DNA of 64,000 bases from Fistulifera solaris. Its lineage: Eukaryota > Bacillariophyta > Bacillariophyceae > Naviculales > Stauroneidaceae. The stretch spans positions 62,001 through 126,000 of the forward strand of contig AP026176.1 of NCBI GenBank assembly GCA_030295235.1. Direction: 5' to 3'. The notes beneath the pieces are model-generated. The model was not told the origin of the DNA. It saw only the letters and a program-made list of their open reading frames with translations, and made no database searches. The stretch's first letter is position 1. The number at the start of each line of letters is the position of its first letter. Below, in pieces: positions 37,566 through 48,611 of the stretch. Position numbers and translations under genes: made by a program.

Positions 37566-38396
37566 ATGTTTTTTGTACCAGAGTCTTGTAGATTCTACGT
37601 CAGCGTAGATATCGTTAATCGTTAGATCGTATGTACTGGATGTTTGGGCCGCAAATTCTTTACATCTTCTCCCCTATCGAATAAATTTTCTATTTCAACG
37701 TACAAGCAACGTACAAATGAGCAATCATTGAAGGGTGACTGGATGATCGCTGTGGAAAAAACAAATAATAATGCTCGATGACGCAACTCCCTAGAAAGAA
37801 CGATTCAGATTCATGAGTGGATTCAATCGTGTCAATGATACCTGGTAGTCAAATTTTTCCACGATTGTCCAGATTTTTCAACCAAAAAACGCGCGAACGA
37901 ACGGCAAATTTGTGGAGCCCTGCGGGCGCGCACGAGTCAAAAGAATGACGCGCGGACAAACTCACATACATTTTGCCAGGATGACCTCGCTTCCCGTTGT
38001 TTCGTATGAAACTGACGCAAGCCAAAAACTCTTTTTATCGACTATCGACCGCACGATTGCGCTTTCGGTCCAGTCCACGTGTCACGCTACTAAATAACCA
38101 AAGGGGCACTATCCATTACTCCTTCAACGGAAAAGTCACGCGGTAACAATATTCGTTTAATACTATACATTCTTCCCACCGAAACACCAAATTCGAGCGA
38201 AGTAACTTTGTGTTCGATCCTGTGAACTCTTTATTTACAGCGTTTCCGTGGATCCATTTTCGTCCTCTTCATTTTTATTTTTATTGTTTCTTCTCACTTT
38301 ATTATCACTCACTGACCAGCGAAGAGGAGGAGATCTTTCTCTCATAAAATCTCTGTTTTTGTTTTGAGAACGACAAGGCAAGCAAATAAATAAATA
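37566..38396. other. Spacer/5' region of the first carbonic-anhydrase-like gene
   Basis: No gene seen. Two TGACGC hexamers (37946-37951 and 38013-38018) sit about 380-450 bp before the start codon; TGACGC is one of the CO2/cAMP-responsive element variants described for a P. tricornutum CA promoter, but two hexamers are weak evidence. The last 60 bp are a T-rich leader ending 'aaataaataatg'. Confidence 0.3.
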
Positions 38397-40080
38397 ATGC
38401 CGAGATTGACGCTGCCGTTCATGGTTGTGGCTCTTTGGGCCACTTCTGCCGTGGCCGACGACGATGGGGCGAACCGTCCGGCCGAGTACGATCGTTTCAA
38501 TTACGATACAACGGTCCGTGCGAACGATCACAACGACTATGGTCCCGAAGACTGGATTCGTGTGCGATGCCCCGACACTAAGACCTGCTTGGGATGGCCC
38601 GATTCCTTTGATGAGGGTATTGGATGGTCGTTCCCCGAGAACTCGTGTCGATGGTGCCCACAAGGCCGCGGTTGCGGAACGCATCATCAAAGTCCCATCA
38701 ATGTATATCGCGAAGTCGTGAACGAGAACGATCGATTGCACAATGTGTGCATTGATGGGCACTGGATGAAGTACTTTGATAGTACGTGCACTTGGGATGA
38801 ACTGGTGCGCAACAATGCCTTTTCGATCGAACGTCATACACTCAAGATTGCACAGCCGACCGAGCAGATGGCGGATGGATCTTTCCGTATCGGTTGCCAA
38901 AACGAGTTGGGTCGTCGTTGGGGCAAGATTGATTTCGCCAAGGGATTTTCGGATTGGTGGCATTTGAGCCACGTGGACTTGCACGTGCCATCGGAACACA
39001 CCCAAAACGGTAAGCGATACGATGGTGAAATTCAAATGTATCACTTTTATTCCGTCTCTGGAGAACAAGCCGGTGTCAACAATGAGGTAAGTACATATTT
39101 TTCATGATTCTTTCTGGTGAATTGCTGACTTGCTGGAAAATTGAAGTTGTATCTTACGTTTTGCGCTTCAAACCTTCACACTCTCACTCTCTCTCTCGCA
39201 GATGGGCACGGTGACTGTGTTTTTGCAAGTGTACGACAATGTCCCCGATTACGGTACACTGAATCGCGTCATTTGTCAATGGCGCAAGGTTGAAGATCAA
39301 ACCCGTGCCGCTTGTGGCTTGCCCAGTGTGGAAACGGACTATCCCGGATGTCATGTTTACACGCGAGGACGTGGCGTTTCGACGTCGTCTGGATTGCGTT
39401 CCTTGATCGAGACGAATACGACACTGGCTCCCAAGCCCAAGTCGGCGCACGACATTCTGATGCACAATTATTTGCATCCCGAAAATATTATGCCCATCAC
39501 CATGGACGAAGACGATTATAAAGACGAAGATGACTTTGATTGGGCCGCCTTTATTGCGGCACAATACGAGAATGATCGCCAAGTCCAGAATCGTCGTCAC
39601 TTGTTGAATTACGATCACGTCGGTACTTGGCACAATTACTGGCCACTGATTGATAGCCGGACGGAATACTACTATCGATACGGTGGTACACAAACGGTCC
39701 CACCCTGCTACGGTCGATTCGTTCTCGGCAACAATCGCGCCCAAACGAACAATTGGCGTGTCATGAAAGATCCGATTCGCATTTCGCAGCGCCAATTGAA
39801 CGAATTGCATCGTTTACTGCGCGAACGGATCGCACCGCCCGATGATCCTTTGGTGGCCTGTCAAGCCGATACGGCCGCCAAGGTCGATCCAGTCACCGGT
39901 TTTGTCGATGTCGCCCGTCCGTTGCAAAACAATGACAAGGCGCATCACATGGTGTATTGTGAATGTGAAAACTGGGGCAGTCAATGGGAAGAAGACAAGG
40001 AATATTGTCGCATCTTTCGCAATGACAAGAATGCTCGTTTGTTTCAGCATCCTTACAACTTTTATACCGAGGGCTTTTAA
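38397..40080 (+). CDS. Secreted alpha-carbonic-anhydrase-like protein, copy 1
   Basis: Exons 38397-39086 and 39202-40080 flank a 115-bp GT-AG intron and give 522 aa. A signal peptide (MPRLTLPFMVVALWATSAVA) precedes the mature start near DDDGANRP. The alpha-CA fold is clear: HHQSPINVYRE near 101, DLHVPSEHTQNGKRYDGEIQ near 199, GTVTVFLQVY, TQTVPPCYGRF near 442 and VMKDPIRISQRQL. Against the family pattern H-x-H...E-H-T...E-x-H, by-eye alignment puts Asp where the first zinc His should be and Gln where the third should be, keeping only the middle one, so catalysis is doubtful. A long acidic insert (DEDDYKDEDDFDW) and a Cys-containing C-terminal extension distinguish it. Substrate if active would be CO2/HCO3-. 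It is tandem with copy 2. Confidence 0.8.
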
Positions 40081-40675
40081 GAAGAGCTGCTGAAGATCTC
40101 GTGTGTTCGATGGCGTGCCTTAATCTATTTCCTCGGTTGGGACATGCTTTTTTTGGCTGGTTCGGTTTGTGGTTTGTGATTTTGTGAGACGGCTGGCGAA
40201 AAGATCGGGTCACGATTGATTTCCCTCTACTTATTACTATAGAATTGTCATGTGTCAGGTTTTTTCAAGTACTCTTTTCAATACTTGCATTGGCACTCTG
40301 GTTCCGAATGTTATCGTAGCCGTTATTTATTGTATGATATTTTTTTGCCTCTCTGTAAGTGAGTCCCCAATTTCCCTTTTTCAACGGAAATGAGCCCACT
40401 CTTTCGTGGCATATTCACAAAATTGTGTCGTCTTTGCCGCGATTGATTCCCTCCAACTCCGCCGTCCGCCAAAAGGGCGCGGAAGAAAAAAAAACTTTGC
40501 GTCTCTTTTGCGGGGCAGCTGCAATTGTCATTTTATTTTATTTTATTTTTTTGTGGTCTCGTGCTCTCTGGTTGTTGGTGAAAAAGAGTTCCGTCTGTTG
40601 AGACTACCGTCAATTCTCTCTCTTTTTCTTCTTTGTGCCTTTCCTACATCTCTACAGTTTCTTCAATTCATCAAA
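40081..40675. other. Spacer between the two carbonic-anhydrase-like genes
   Basis: A 595-bp T-rich interval with no gene. It has pyrimidine runs and 'ttactatag' at 40230. The last 100 bp is a CT-rich leader ('ctctctctttttcttctttg') before the second copy. Confidence 0.5.
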
Positions 40676-42349
40676 ATGCCCCGCATTGCTGTACGAGCCG
40701 CCCTCGCGGTCCTGCTCGCGACTTCGACCGTTGCCGACGACAGCTCGAATCGTCCGGCCGAGTATGATCGTTTCAATTACGAAACGACCGTTCGAGCAAA
40801 CGATCACAACGACTACGGCCCCGAAGACTGGATTCGTGTGCGCTGTCCCGACCCGAAGACGTGCCTGGGATGGCCCGATTCCTTTGACGAAGCCATCGGA
40901 TGGTCTTTCCCCGAAAACTCCTGTCAATGGTGCCCCGCCGGCCGCGGTTGCGGTGTGACGCATCATCAAAGTCCTATCAACGTCTATCGCGACGTGCAAA
41001 TTGAAGGTGATCCGTTGTATAATCCCTGCATTGATGGGCACTGGATGAAGTTCTTTGATAGTACGTGCACGATGGAAGAATTGCAGCGCAACAACGCGTT
41101 TACAATCGAACGACATGCGCTCAAGATTGCGCAGCCCACCGAGCAGTTGGCGGACGGATCCTTCCGTATCGGCTGTCAAAGTGAGTTGGGTCGTCGTTGG
41201 GGCAAGATCGATTTCGCCAAGGGGTTCTCGCAGTGGTGGCATTTGAGTCATACCGACCTGCATGTCCCCTCGGAGCATACACAGAACGGCAAACGATACG
41301 ATGGAGAGATTCAGTTGTATCACTTTTATTCTGTCTCTGGAGAAGAAGCCGGTGTGAATAATGAGGTAAGATGACTTTCTAGCTAGTTGGTGTCTTTCGT
41401 TCGATCATTATCAACGAGATTTCAGTGAATCTCAACGAATCTTTTTTTCATGATTACAACAGATGGGTACTGTCAGTTTCTTTTTGCAGTCGTACGATGA
41501 TACCCCCGATTACGACATGTTGAATCGCGTCATTTGTCAATGGCGTCGTGCGGAAGATCAAAATCGTGCCGCCTGTGGGTTGCCCAGTGTCGAAACCGAG
41601 TATCCTGGTTGCCACAGCTATTCTCGAGGAAATGCCGCTTCGACTACCGCCGGACGCAACTTGCGCACGACCGTCGACGCTAACGCGACACTTCTCGAGA
41701 AACCCCTGTCGGCACACGACATTATCATTCACAACTATCTCAATCCTACCGGTGAGCGCAAAACCATCACCATGAGTGAAGAGGACTACAAGGACGAAGA
41801 TGACTTTGACTGGGCCGCATTCATTGCGGATGTTTACGAAAACGAACGTCAGGTCCAGAATCGTCGTCATTTGAGAGACTACGACCACGTCGGTCCTTGG
41901 CACAACTACTGGCCTCTGATTGGAGTCAAGACAGAGTATTACTACCGATACAGTGGCTCACAAACGATCCCCCCGTGCTACGGTCGCTTCGTGGAAGGCA
42001 ACAATCGTGCCCAAACTAACAACTGGCGTGTCATGAAAGATCCCATCCGGATCTCCAAGAGACAGTTGGCCGAATTGCACCGCTTGTTGCGCGAGCGTAT
42101 CGCTCCCCCACGGATCCTCTCGTGGCCTGCCAACCAGATACGGCCGCGAAAGTAGATCCCACCACCAATTTTGTGGATGTGGCGCGGCCTTTGCAACAAG
42201 TCGAAAAGGCGCACCACATGGTGTATTGCGAATGCGAAAACTGGGGCAGTCAGTGGGAAGAAGACAAGGACTACTGTCGTATTTTCCGGGACGATCGCAA
42301 CGCACGTTACTTTCAACACCCGTACAACTTTTACACGGAAGGATTTTAA
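40676..42349 (+). CDS. Secreted alpha-carbonic-anhydrase-like protein, copy 2
   Basis: Tandem paralogue of the gene at 38397, with the intron at the same place (exons 40676-41365 and 41463-42349; exon 1 is exactly 690 nt in both). Signal peptide MPRIAVRAALAVLLATSTVA. The same motifs appear (THHQSPINVYRD, DLHVPSEHTQNGKRYDGEIQ, SQTIPPCYGRF), with the same apparent loss of two zinc histidines (Asp and Gln instead). The acidic insert is retained (SEEDYKDEDDFDW) and a few residues longer. A C5 run at 42105-42109 is one base short for RIAPPTDPLVAC; counting it restores 525 aa. The pair are about four-fifths identical, consistent with a fairly recent duplication. Confidence 0.8.
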
Positions 42350-42392: not shown

Positions 42393-42492
42393 ATTGCTAG
42401 TAAGCGAGCCATCGATTTGTCTCATGATTAATGATCGCTGTCAATTGCTAGTAAGCGAGCCATCGATTTGTCTCATGATTAATGATCGCTGT
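42393..42492. repeat. 51-bp tandem duplication in the 3' flank of copy 2
   Basis: The segment starting 'attgctagtaagcgagccat' at 42393 is repeated at 42444, ending 'aatgatcgctgt' in both, near-perfectly. It lies about 45 bp past the stop codon and may be transcribed. Confidence 0.9.
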
Positions 42493-43193: not shown

Positions 43194-45109
43194 ATGAGCG
43201 ATTCCATCAATAAAAATTGCCGAGCCCTGACCGTGGACTTTGTACTTCGTGACGATGATCCGGAAATGGCGGCCGTCGAAGACGATATCCGCCGGGATCT
43301 GTTGAAACTCAACATTCAGGTCAACACGCGGATGTTGAATGCTTCCGATTACGGTGATGCGGAACGCAATGGAGATTTCAATCTGTTGTTCACGCGTACT
43401 TGGGGAGCACGTAAGTACCAAGATGATTGGTATGAGACTGTTGTGTCAAAGCAGCCTCACTTCTCACTGTTGTACTGTCAACCTTCTCCGTATCTTCTCC
43501 CCTCCTGTTCAATCTTCCTCATTACACGGATGATAACCAAAAGCTTACGATCCCCACACGTACTTGAATTCCTGGGCCATTCCGGCGCACGTCGAGTACG
43601 CGGCCTCGGCGCAAATGCACCCACCCCTCACCCGTGATGACTTTCTCGCCAAGGTCAAGAATGTGCAACGCGAATCCGATCCTTCCAAATTGCAACAGCA
43701 GTGGACCGAAATCCTCAACGACATTCATCAACAAGCCATCTTTTTTGCCCTTGTGGGGGACCCGTATCCCTTATGTCGTGAGTCGTCGTTTGACCGACTT
43801 TACCCCCAGTCCCCAAGCCTTTTCGTATCCTCTCGAATCGGTCCGCATTGTGGAAGGTTCCGCCAATGTCACCATTGCCCCCGGTGCCGGTGGTTCCTTG
43901 TTTGAATCGGTGGGACCGATGAATCCGCACCAATACTTTCCGAACCAACTCTTTGCGCAAGCGTGGTTGTACTGAAGGATTGGTCGCGTACGGACAAGAC
44001 GGAGAAATCTTACCGGCCTTGGCCACGCAGTGGTCGACGGAAGAAATCGAAGGGGGTGGTCAACGTGTGACGTTTGTGTTGCGCGACAATGTCACGTTCC
44101 ACGATGGAGCCGCCTGGAATTGTGCCGCCGCCAAGTTGAACTTTGATCACGTGTTATCGGACAGTGTGCGCGAACGTCACGGATACATGGGTTTGACGGC
44201 CATTCTCAAAAGTTGGTCGTGTACCGATGCCGGTGAATTTGTGTTGGAAACGAGTGAACCCTTCTATCCGTTGTTGCAAGAATTGACGTACATTCGTCCC
44301 TTGACGTTTGCGTCTCCCAACGCGTTTGCGCAAGGCCTCGATTCGCATCCGGATCAGCACAATTCGTGCAATCCGGGTGATTTTGGTTCCAGTTGGACGC
44401 ATTTGGAAGAAGAAGTAACGTGCGCGGGTCTCAAATACCCGGCGGGCACGGGACCGTTCATATCGTCTCTCGTGTCACCAACGACGATGGCAAAGATACG
44501 CAGGTGGTTTTTGCCCGTCATGACACGTATTGGGGGACCGTACCCGGCATTGAGAATTTGATCATTCAAGCGTACGACAGTACGGAAGACGTGGAAGCTG
44601 CTCTGTTGGACGGCACATTGGATATGGCGTTGGGCGTCGGACCTTTAACGGCGAAACAAGTACAAGCCTTGAAGTTTTCGCATTCCGACGTCTTGGATGT
44701 CCGTCATTCCGATGTCTTGCAGCATGCGTTAGTGGTGATGAATACCGGTAAATCTCCCACGGACGAGATTGCCGTCCGTCGCGCCATCACGCACGGCATT
44801 GACAAGAATACGTTCATTCAGAACGAATTTGCCGGCCTCGAACAGCCCGTCGCGCAGTTGTTGCCGTTCACGGCACCGTATTGCAACGTAGATTTGTCTC
44901 CGAAATGGAGTTATGATTTCGAAAAGGCCCAGTTGATCAATTGTCCTGTCGAAAGCGATAATAGTTTGAGCAGTGGAGCCATTGCCGGAATTGCCATTGG
45001 TGGATTGGCCTTTGTGGCTTTGTTGATCTTTGTAGTGCGGCTCGTGCAAGCGGAAAAGCAAGGCAAACCCGTCTTTGCTCCTTCGACGAAGGGAGAGAGT
45101 AATATGTAA
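43194..45109 (+). CDS. NikA-like (family 5) solute-binding protein, circularly permuted, membrane-anchored
   Basis: Resembles bacterial NikA, the periplasmic nickel-complex/oligopeptide binder, but in rearranged order. Exons 43194-43410 and 43544-45109 (133-bp GT-AG intron) give about 593 aa. Residues 1-185 correspond to NikA's C-terminal lobe (TWGAPYDPHTYLNSWAIPAH, then AIFLPLWGTRIPYVVSRR). Residues 190-545 match its N-terminal lobe (VGPMNPHQYFPNQLFAQA, FVLRDNVTFHDGAAWN, PAGTGPF, DTYWGTVPGIENL, LVVMNTGKSPTDEIAVRRA). Then comes a glycine-rich TM helix (AIAGIAIGGLAFVALLIFVV, about 551-574) and a short basic tail. Three single-base oddities disturb frame: a T6 run at 43741, an extra T at 43972, and TT at 44457; net, the exons make 594 codons. 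No signal peptide is visible from this Met. Acquisition from bacteria is likely but inferred. Confidence 0.75.
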
Positions 45110-45230: not shown

Positions 45231-45470
45231 TCGCACAGATTTTCTGGAAACGTGAAAACATCACACTTTCTGATTTTCTGGAAACGTGAAAACATCACAA
45301 TCCCAGATTTTCTGGAGACGTGAAAACATCACACTCCCTGATTTTGTGGAAACGTGAAAACATCACACTCCCTGATTTTCTGGACAAGTGAAAACCACAA
45401 TCACCCAGATTTTCTGGAAACGTGAAAACGTCACACTCCCAGATTTTCGGGACAGGTGAAAATATCACAC
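45231..45470. repeat. Seven-copy tandem array of a ~34-bp repeat
   Basis: Units of about 34 bp with core 'gattttctggaaacgtgaaa' then 'acatcacactccc'. Copies differ at a few positions. The same unit is doubled at 14405-14465 and single near 2238-2262. It lies about 150 bp upstream of the acyltransferase gene start and 120 bp after the NikA-like stop. There are no unique spacers, so it is not a CRISPR. Confidence 0.9.
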
Positions 45471-45621
45471 GCACGTAATACTGGTATTACTGGTACGGTA
45501 TTAGCCCCACACACGGTCTTTTTTCAAATCGTCGTCGGCACACAAGTGTTGACGGGCGTCTATTCTTTTTCTTTTGTAGTCCTTGACAACACATGCACTA
45601 CAGAAAGAAATTTGCGGAACA

Positions 45622-48611
45622 ATGACTACAGATGGAGCCGCCGAAACGGCGCCTTTATCGAGTATGGCAGCGGCACTCTTCTTTGCCGTCATCGTCATGA
45701 CCTACGTGACTTTGACGACTTTGGCGGCTTTCTTTTCTGCCAATAATGAGTCCTCCTTGAGCACACTATATCAAACGGCGAATCATCCCCGCGCCCAACC
45801 GGTGCAATGGCGACAATTGTCGAGCCTTTATACTCTACTGCAACAGTTTTCAGTCCTCGGACTCATTCTCTTGTATGCGTATCTGTGTGAATATCATCCA
45901 CCACATCCGCATGGTGAAAAAGTCTACGATCGGGACCTGTTTTTCTTTTTGACGGCCTTGTTGTTGCTGGTATCGGCCTTTACGCACAAGTCGCATCGTC
46001 GGGCTTCGACAAGTAGTACTACTACTGCATCAACAACTACAACACTGCAATGGACCGAACGTCCCGTCGCGGCCGCCGAAGAAGCCACCGAGTTATTGAA
46101 TCGCGATCAAACGGAAGAATGGAAAGGATGGATGCAATTCATGTTCTTATTGTATCATTATTATCATGCGGAAGAAGTGTATAACAGTATTCGGGTCATG
46201 ATCACTTCGTACGTGTGGATGACCGGCTTTGGGAATGTTTCCTTCTTTTATTTGAAACAAGATTATTCCGCTCTGAGAGTCGTGCAAATGCTCTGGCGAT
46301 TGAACTTTTTGGTCGTCTTCTTGTGTTGGACGCAAGGGACCACATATATCTTGTATTACATTTGTCTCTTGCATACCTTCTTTTTTGGCATGGTCTATGT
46401 GACGATGCGCACCCAAGCGCATCTCAATTATACCAAATACGGAATTCGCATCAAATTCATGGTTCTCGCCTGCTTGATTTATTTGATTTGGGATCTCGAT
46501 CTCGGATTGTTTCAACTCTTGCACGGTTTGTTTTTGGGACAAACGCCCATGTTGGGCGCCACCGGCGGGCGCTCTGGGAATGGTATTTTCGTTCCACGCT
46601 CGATCATTGGAGTACCTTTTTTGGAATGATCTTTGCTCTCAATTTTCCTATCACGAGTTTGTTTTTTCGCAAACTCGAAGCCCAACCGTGGTATCTGGAA
46701 TGGTCGGCGAAGTTGACAATTTCCGTCGCATTATTGACCGCGACGTATTGGTGGATCACCCATCCCTTTGCGCACAACAAATTCGAATACAACCAAACGA
46801 ATGCGTACTTTGCGTGTATTCCGGTTTATACTTATATTTTCTTGAGAAATTTGACGCCCTGGCTCCGAGGCCATACGTTGGAATTGTTGCACCAAATTGG
46901 AAAGACGACCTTGGAAACGTACTTGATGCAGCATCATATCTGGTTGACCAGTAATGCCAAGACGTTGTTGATTCTGATACCGGGATGGCCGAAATGCAAC
47001 TTCTTGCTGGTCAGTGTCATTTATGTCGTGTTGTCGAGACGATTGTATACATTAACGCTCTTTTTGCGGGGAATGTTGTTACCGAATGATTGGAATCAGT
47101 GTCGGACGAATTTGATCGGATTGATGGGGGCCATGGGAGCATGTCATGCCATGGCGTGGATTTTGCAATTCATGGGTATGTTGAGTTTGACATCCGTAGC
47201 GGCAGTAGCGGCGGTCATCAGTGGCACTTTGTCCTATCAGATTGTGCGAGATACGTCACCCACGGCAACAAGTAGTATTCATCCCGTAGCGACGAAACCA
47301 TGGTTGGTCTCTTGTTTCACGGGATGGGTAGTTGTTTTGGTATTCGGACTTGTTTGGCACCATATGGCGCTGACTGGTGCGACCAAAGTACAGCCCTTGC
47401 CGGATGTATGCGCGTCGGAAGTTATCCGCGGAGATTGGATTAGCGTCAATTTGTGCAATGAGGAAACCCGCGGTGCCGCTTACCGCGATGAAGACATGGG
47501 ATCGTTAGGCGTGTGTCCGGCTACGCCTTCCGTGTGGGGTTGGACGCAATCGGATTATCCCGAATGCCGTATGGTCTCTCGCGATAAGGGTGCTTTACTA
47601 AATACTTTGAAGCATCGCCGGCTTGTGTTTGTCGGCGATTCCATGATCCGACATTTGTATTTTGCAATGGCTCGACAATTGGGTGATGCCAAGGCAGGAG
47701 CTTACAATACCACTTTGGATAAGTGGTCCGACTATGAAAACAAATACGGCTCAGTCGACCTGGAATTTAAATGGGCACCCTATGTGTACGATGTGACGGA
47801 GCAAGTCGCACAAGCATACTCGCGGAACGATATCGATATGCTGATTTTGGGTGGCGGAGCATGGGATCGGTTACATCATTTTCCCAATAGTCAGGCCGCG
47901 GTAGAAATGGAGAAGAATGTCACGAAATTGGTGTCGGCCGTAAAGAAGCAGAAACAGCACAGTGACATTCCCATAGTCTGGGTGACGCCGACGACTATTA
48001 ATGATTGGGCTTTAACGGATGATGCCAAACGTGCCCATCTTCCGGAATCCAACATGCAGCAATTGCGGAGCCTGTACCAGAAGCAAGGGATGGAAGACGC
48101 AGTCGACTGGACATTGCCAGGACCTGTCTTCACCCGCACCCGTGTTGCAGAGAGTTACGATGGGGTGCATTATCCTTTGCAAATATACCATGCTGGCGCA
48201 CAAATACTCTCGCAAACCTTTGATTGGCTGTTGCTGCCCCTTTCCCCAGAAAAAAATGATACTTTTACGCCGAAACGACCTGGTGAAATGTCCAATCCTT
48301 TTCTTGGTTTGTTGATGCTCTGTCTGGCTTTCATTGGTCTGTTTGGTTTTGACGGATTCCTTGGAGTCAGTTACCTGGTCTATTGTTGTGTCCCCAAGGT
48401 CATTCCGAAGCGGCTTTTTACCGAATCTTTTCGGCAGCTTCATCTTGCTGCAGGGTTACCGCCCATCGCCGAAGACGATGCAATGGATGACTTCCAAGTG
48501 GACAAAAGTAAGAGCAGTGACTATGTTGATGGCAACGAGGACTCGGACGAGGAAAGAGAAAAGTTTTACAGGACGATGTCAAAGATTTTGCTCAAAAAAA
48601 TGTCGAACTGA
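45622..48611 (+). CDS. RWA/CASD1-like polysaccharide O-acetyltransferase with C-terminal SGNH domain
   Basis: A 996-aa multi-pass membrane protein that likely O-acetylates sugars in the secretory pathway. Residues about 20-570 are a Cas1p-type 10-TM acyltransferase: EEWKGWMQFMFLLYHYYHA, WMTGFGNVSFFY, LNFLVVFLCW, LYYICLLHTFFFGMVY and GKTTLETYLMQHHIW (with the conserved His pair). From about 600 follows a lumenal SGNH/PC-esterase domain: GDSMIRHLYFAMA near 670, LILGGGAWDRLHH, and the catalytic D-x-x-H in DGVHYP near 846. A last TM (about 893-923) and an acidic tail end it. Animal CASD1 has SGNH first; here the order is reversed. A G3 run (46567-46569) is one short for GATGGALWEWYF; with it the CDS is exactly 997 codons. 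Confidence 0.85.

Follow-up and report, generated by a model that had tools for sequence, protein, structure and literature searches.

The gene at positions 43194-45109 of the window, i.e. the analysed 64,000-nucleotide stretch (positions 62001-126000 of contig C40) of a genome searched over 51.7 Mb, encodes a natural circular permutation of a NikA-type solute-binding protein; the permutation is real and selected for, and it occurs in at least two paralogues. The gene contains one intron, and its product begins with the C-lobe, runs from the old C-terminus into the old N-terminus, continues with the N-lobe and ends with a transmembrane (TM) helix. Because the halves are swapped and a membrane anchor has been gained, the protein probably traps metal at the cell surface, to which it is tethered, and is not part of a bacterial-type importer. 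We consider this explanation as a whole, namely a permuted NikA-type (family 5) protein of bacterial ancestry whose function we infer to be that of such a trap, to be probable.

Matches to family 5 were found at six loci in the genome: in the window and on contigs C41, C1, C2, C19 and C20. At the loci examined, the contigs are related in pairs (C40/C41, C1/C2, C19/C20), and this pairing fits an allodiploid such as Fistulifera solaris (PMC5935921); matches to silicon transporters (E = 3.5e-222) indicate a diatom host. On C1 and on C2 the paralogue is uninterrupted: one open frame spans 644 codons and 640 codons, respectively, between stop codons, or 618 and 617 codons from a shared Met. P0001, the protein encoded on C1, starts at Met27 with a hydrophobic stretch that resembles a signal peptide, MLALLLVLAPTMLLA, followed by the C-lobe, the N-lobe and a C-terminal TM stretch. 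On C19 lies a gene for a second family-5 protein of the Opp5A/SaNikA type (L001 1303-2721), whose homoeologue on C20 (L007) is spread over several frames. It has a hydrophobic, signal-peptide-like start in common with P0001, but it retains the normal order, has no strong C-terminal TM stretch and finds its best subfamily elsewhere (NF045468, 211 bits, below the cut-off of 600 for that family).

The following features were assigned to the window gene:

43194..43410, forward strand: exon 1, with the ATG and the beginning of the original C-lobe (as far as TWGA), from alignment with P0001 and C41
43218, forward strand: Cys codon near the new N-terminus, in exon 1, common to both paralogues
43411..43543, forward strand: intron, GT-AG in both homoeologues and at the same position in C41, from the C40/C41 alignment (about 8% diverged)
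43544..45109, forward strand: exon 2, with the remaining C-lobe, the join of the old termini, the N-lobe, the TM helix, the tail and the stop codon
43840..43918, forward strand: approximate junction of old C-terminus and old N-terminus (VRIVEGSANVTIAPGAGGSLFESVG), from alignment to the paralogue
43953..44558, forward strand: N-lobe part 1 (PF00496 positions 1-123, 47.9 bits)
44393..45106, forward strand: N-lobe part 2 (PF00496 positions 128-270, 71.4 bits)
44942, forward strand: Cys codon just before the anchor
44981..45037, forward strand: predicted transmembrane helix IAGIAIGGLAFVALLIFVV, mean hydropathy 2.8

The ATG at 43194 agrees by eye with a rise in C40/C41 conservation at this point. 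Inspection by eye revealed no signal peptide for the window copy, nor did the C40/C41 alignment, likewise by eye, reveal an upstream exon encoding one.

The reversed order is most directly seen in the intact paralogue: residues 57-181 of P0001 align with E. coli NikA 346-467, residues 233-390 with NikA 13-163, and residues 411-581 with NikA 160-318. A separate search with each half, as the original prediction had proposed, gives the same picture. The C-half alone matches positions 338-500 of the 501 positions of TIGR02294 (79.5 bits), and the N-half has its best stretch at 14-157 (226.9 bits in all), the window pieces accounting for PF00496 positions 1-123 and 128-270. For either half, the nickel-binding NikA family (TIGR02294) ranks first among NCBIfam models and the staphylopine-metal binding CntA family (NF047575) second, with peptide binders lower. 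With 300.3 bits the permuted protein misses the whole-protein equivalog cut-off of TIGR02294 (393 bits), which is still its top-scoring model. Against PF00496, the window pieces (71.4 and 47.9 bits) and the paralogue (142.2 bits) exceed the curated cut-off of 32.4, and the first C-lobe exon of the window gene on its own stays below it (12.3 bits). The pieces of the window gene follow P0001 in the order 35-111, 113-187, 179-254, 240-417 and 425-628, at 35-47% identity, and the succession of N-lobe before C-lobe known from NikA is reversed in all four permuted loci. The order in the paralogue and the half-by-half matches thus show that the permutation is real, complete and common to two paralogues.

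Together, the two lobes cover positions 14-318 and 338-500 of the 501 in TIGR02294. This is nearly all of NikA, so only the loop at the cut site, NikA ~319-337, is left unaccounted for. A search of the genome with P0001 at E up to 0.01 yielded 11 matches, all within the four permuted loci, and hence no further half; at this threshold, the search was blind also to the distant, normal-order gene on C19/C20. Both halves therefore stem from one parent family, are complete and are joined at the old termini, and no missing half was found, as is characteristic of a circular permutation. On these points the original prediction, which had been made from the window alone, agrees with the wider evidence. 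It had the C-lobe preceding the N-lobe, as the alignment of P0001 with NikA, the matches of the halves to TIGR02294 and the order of the window pieces along P0001 now confirm; it had recognised a NikA-like protein with a C-terminal anchor, which recurs in the intact paralogue on two contigs besides the TM helix of the window gene; and it had placed the break where we find it, at NikA ~319-337. The fusion of the original termini that it proposed proves to be a nearly direct join (the C-half ends at TIGR02294 position 500, and the N-half starts from 14), and its view that no half is missing now extends from the surroundings of the gene to the genome search just described.

Among known systems, E. 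coli NikA is the best match of both halves, and its site residues are partly kept. The permuted protein differs from it in the swapped halves, the membrane anchor, additional cysteines and the lack of any partner ABC permease found. CntA, the second-best match, has the normal order and is, also by its family name, the lipoprotein of an ABC importer. The numbering of NikA residues was checked on the printed NikA sequence; in NikA, His416, Arg97, Arg137, Trp100, Thr23 and Met27 form the metal site, with His416 as the metal ligand. The window copy retains Arg97, Arg137, Trp398 and His416, and Trp100 is replaced by Tyr; its Y402 follows the intron. In P0001 and P0002, Trp100, Arg137, Trp398 and Tyr402 are kept, with Tyr at 97 and Glu at 416. 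Neither paralogue retains Thr23 or Met27. Owing to these differences in site residues, the two paralogues may bind different ligands.

The chain is cut in the loop that follows the 'YDxxKA' helix; hardly any sequence separates the old C-terminus from the old N-terminus, and the new C-terminus bears the single TM helix. We propose that the protein, at least in the C1/C2 form with its signal-peptide-like start, would be exported and would reside at the cell surface with the topology of a type I membrane protein, that the permuted chain would fold into the usual two-lobed trap, and that this trap would bind a complex of Zn, Co or Ni with a ligand. Seven Cys positions of the ectodomain are common to both paralogues. 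One is just inside the new N-terminus (codon 43218) and one just before the anchor (44942); four form two nearby pairs in the N-lobe, and the seventh belongs to a PYC motif that also occurs in spirochaete proteins. The two terminal cysteines could by elimination bond with each other, and a disulfide between the new termini may close the cut in both paralogues. No match to the permease family PF00528 (BPD_transp_1) was found in the genome, with 14 of 14 controls positive, in a search that ignored introns and may not have covered the organelle genomes; ZIP transporters are present. Because no ABC permease was found for docking, we suppose that the bound metal would be concentrated near ZIP-type carriers, or that the protein would be internalised, as has been proposed for the diatom protein ZCRP-B.

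ZCRP-B (Kellogg et al. 2022, PMC9010474) is a diatom NikA homologue that becomes more abundant under Zn/Co limitation. YFP tagging places it at the cell (plasma) membrane, mostly extracellular, and its suggested role is that of a surface ligand which concentrates metal for ZIPs or for endocytosis (PMC9010474); overexpression of the P. tricornutum protein left Co uptake unchanged in the authors' test (PMC9010474). The permuted protein is likewise a diatom NikA homologue with a single TM helix, and the identities to E. coli NikA are nearly the same: 30.5% for ZCRP-B (PMC9010474) and 30.66% for P0001 over the N-half. This near-equality is compatible with the P. tricornutum protein being permuted as well; the position of its TM helix speaks against the same anchor. 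The single TM of P. tricornutum ZCRP-B is described as 'near the N-terminus' (PMC9010474), whereas here the strongest hydrophobic stretch is C-terminal and the N-terminal one resembles a signal peptide. The string 'permut' does not occur in the main text of that paper (PMC9010474), which is the only relevant report on diatom NikA-like proteins among the literature matches listed.

One could instead read the protein as a surface receptor or sensor, or as a binder of peptide or haem in place of a metal complex, which we regard as rather unlikely. Peptides and haem are also ligands of family 5, a single TM helix with a short tail would suit a receptor, and the paralogue on C1/C2 lacks His416, with T23 and M27 changed in both paralogues. 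Yet for both halves nickel NikA is the top-scoring family and CntA the next, above the peptide binders; the window paralogue retains His416, Arg97 and Arg137; and Pfam detects no signalling domain in the C-terminal tail.

As for the gene neighbourhood, two tandem genes with matches to alpha-carbonic anhydrase (PF00194; 31.4, 27.1, 26.4 and 17.0 bits, cut-off 27) lie directly upstream, at 38394-42347 of the window. Carbonic anhydrase is a Zn/Co enzyme, so that its adjoining position may not be a matter of chance. ZCRP-A-like (cobW) genes have 17 matches in the genome; neither C40 nor C41 carries one, and on C1 and C2 they are more than 300 kb away from the permuted genes. A Cas1-type acyltransferase gene at 45583-48608 occupies two overlapping frames, also in C41, owing to an intron or a frame break. 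Between these genes and the permuted one lie a perfect direct duplication of 51 bp (42393-42492, upstream) and a 34-bp tandem repeat of 6.9 copies (45236-45470, in the gap downstream), which by eye gives no clean alignment with C41.

The original prediction had also spoken of an intact permuted protein, and for the assembled window copy this does not hold: its frame shifts near 43.74 kb (in homopolymer-rich sequence), near 43.97 kb and near 44.46 kb. The first of these breaks also occurs in C41, whose copy has in addition a private one, close to the position that corresponds to 44.05 kb. Frame breaks are frequent in this region in general. Excluding the binding-protein gene, 14 of 23 window ORFs are broken in C41 (0.61 breaks per kb) and 8 of 23 C41 ORFs in the window (0.49 breaks per kb), where a break was counted if it occurs in one copy at a place where the other is open, so that breaks common to both copies are invisible to the count; for 2 of 25 and 4 of 27 ORFs there was no homoeologue fit for the comparison. 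This local background predicts about one break per copy, and the three breaks in C40 and two in C41 are thus somewhat above it.

Over 577 codons, the two homoeologues differ by 69 synonymous (Sd) and 13 non-synonymous (Nd) changes, which gives an omega of 0.048 when codons at gaps and breaks are dropped and, among several open frames, the one with the lowest dN is chosen; synonymous changes exceed non-synonymous ones in all six segments. Exon 1 alone differs from C41 by two synonymous changes and no amino acid over 72 codons; for the C1/C2 paralogue pair, omega is 0.177 over 617 codons. These values show that the permuted protein has been under purifying selection. Between C40 and C41, upstream DNA and intron are both 8% different (47/577 and 11/135 positions), and synonymous divergence spans 0.04 (exon 1) to 0.33 (close to the 3' end), being much lower across 43194-43970 than on the 3' side. 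One explanation for this uneven distribution could be gene conversion or a partly collapsed assembly on the 5' side.

Given that frame breaks are common locally (0.5-0.6 per kb) and that dN/dS between C40 and C41 is 0.048, assembly noise is a likelier source of the breaks than decay of the gene, and we regard them as probably being such noise. The break common to both copies, together with the lack of a recognised signal peptide, makes a pseudogene possible, and we count the three breaks and the missing signal peptide against our preferred explanation, together with the changed site residues, the score below the TIGR02294 cut-off, and the N-terminal TM and unchanged Co uptake reported for ZCRP-B. 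A genuine permutation whose window copy, along with that on C41, has become a pseudogene nevertheless seems unlikely to us. It would account for a shared break, two more in C40 and one more in C41 against a background of about one per copy, and for the absence of a detectable signal peptide upstream. The low omega in the homoeologues and the excess of synonymous changes in every segment are at odds with it, unless the loss was very recent, as is the frequency with which other ORFs are broken in both directions of the comparison.

The origin of the permuted gene was approached by a contig scan of 84,980 species genomes, which returned 157 relatives, 80 loci of which were kept. Both halves were detected in 43 of these bacterial loci, and all 43 have the normal order; so do the matches in 13 whole genomes, each of which had contributed to the 80 loci. 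In a tree of 46 rows, including the 43 bacterial loci with both halves, the diatom pair falls within NikA on a long branch for which neither a sister nor a donor lineage is resolved; long-branch joins are a flagged risk here. A class-wide search that covered 385 genomes with a threshold of E 1e-30 was empty but says little, as it also missed the normal nikA of the centre genome (2.8e-30), scoring at most three candidates per genome among the 20 listed. An earlier contig scan with a single protein as query gave no matches, and one scan of viral contigs found no viral relatives.

The top-scoring bacterial locus, from a Spirochaetaceae MAG (L008 2809-6108), contains two complete nikA genes in tandem and in the same frame, with a stop codon and a few more codons between them. 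By analogy, and not as an ancestor, such a pair represents the sort of arrangement that could give rise to a permuted gene by fusion and trimming. Duplication and fusion is one of the two standard models of circular permutation (PMC3320104), and the most likely origin of the present gene would be a tandem duplication of nikA followed by fusion and trimming. It is quite improbable, in our estimation, that the gene arrived from a bacterium already permuted and was not rearranged within the alga. The limited sample of bacteria, the length of the diatom branch and the lack of a resolved donor leave some room for such a transfer, but the normal order in every bacterial locus with both halves and in the whole genomes argues against it.

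Finally, we find it hardly credible that assembly produced the reversed order as an artefact, or that two partial tandem genes have been read as one, even though the window copy is spread over several frames and the assembly has many breaks: the permuted order recurs at four loci, each on a contig of its own, two of these loci are uninterrupted frames (644 and 640 codons), and the P0001 search, within its limits, found no other half. A misassembly of two tandem genes, which the original prediction had named as its possible undoing, and likewise two partial genes, are rejected in view of the open frames of C1/C2 and the recurrence on four contigs.

Going beyond the present genome, we tentatively entertain, though with somewhat more doubt than belief, the idea that the ZCRP-B lineage includes permuted Venus-flytraps, in which the chain ends were moved to a loop of the other lobe, the cut site became the tether and a new disulfide closes the cut. 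Among the literature matches listed for permuted binding proteins and for permutation in diatoms, we found no natural permuted family-5 binding protein; to judge by titles and the beginnings of abstracts, the listed work on 'circularly permuted' binding proteins concerns the engineering of biosensors. If our reading is correct, no natural permutation would have been described before among the family-5 binding proteins, as far as the literature searched shows, and a soluble subunit of an ABC importer would here have been turned into a stand-alone surface trap. Alignments and topology models that presume the normal NikA order may mis-describe such proteins. As ZCRP-B has been put forward as an indicator of zinc stress in the field (PMC9010474), the finding would also bear on how diatoms capture scarce zinc and cobalt, and an example that is natural and under selection would illustrate the way in which evolution re-anchors a periplasmic trap on the surface of a eukaryotic cell.
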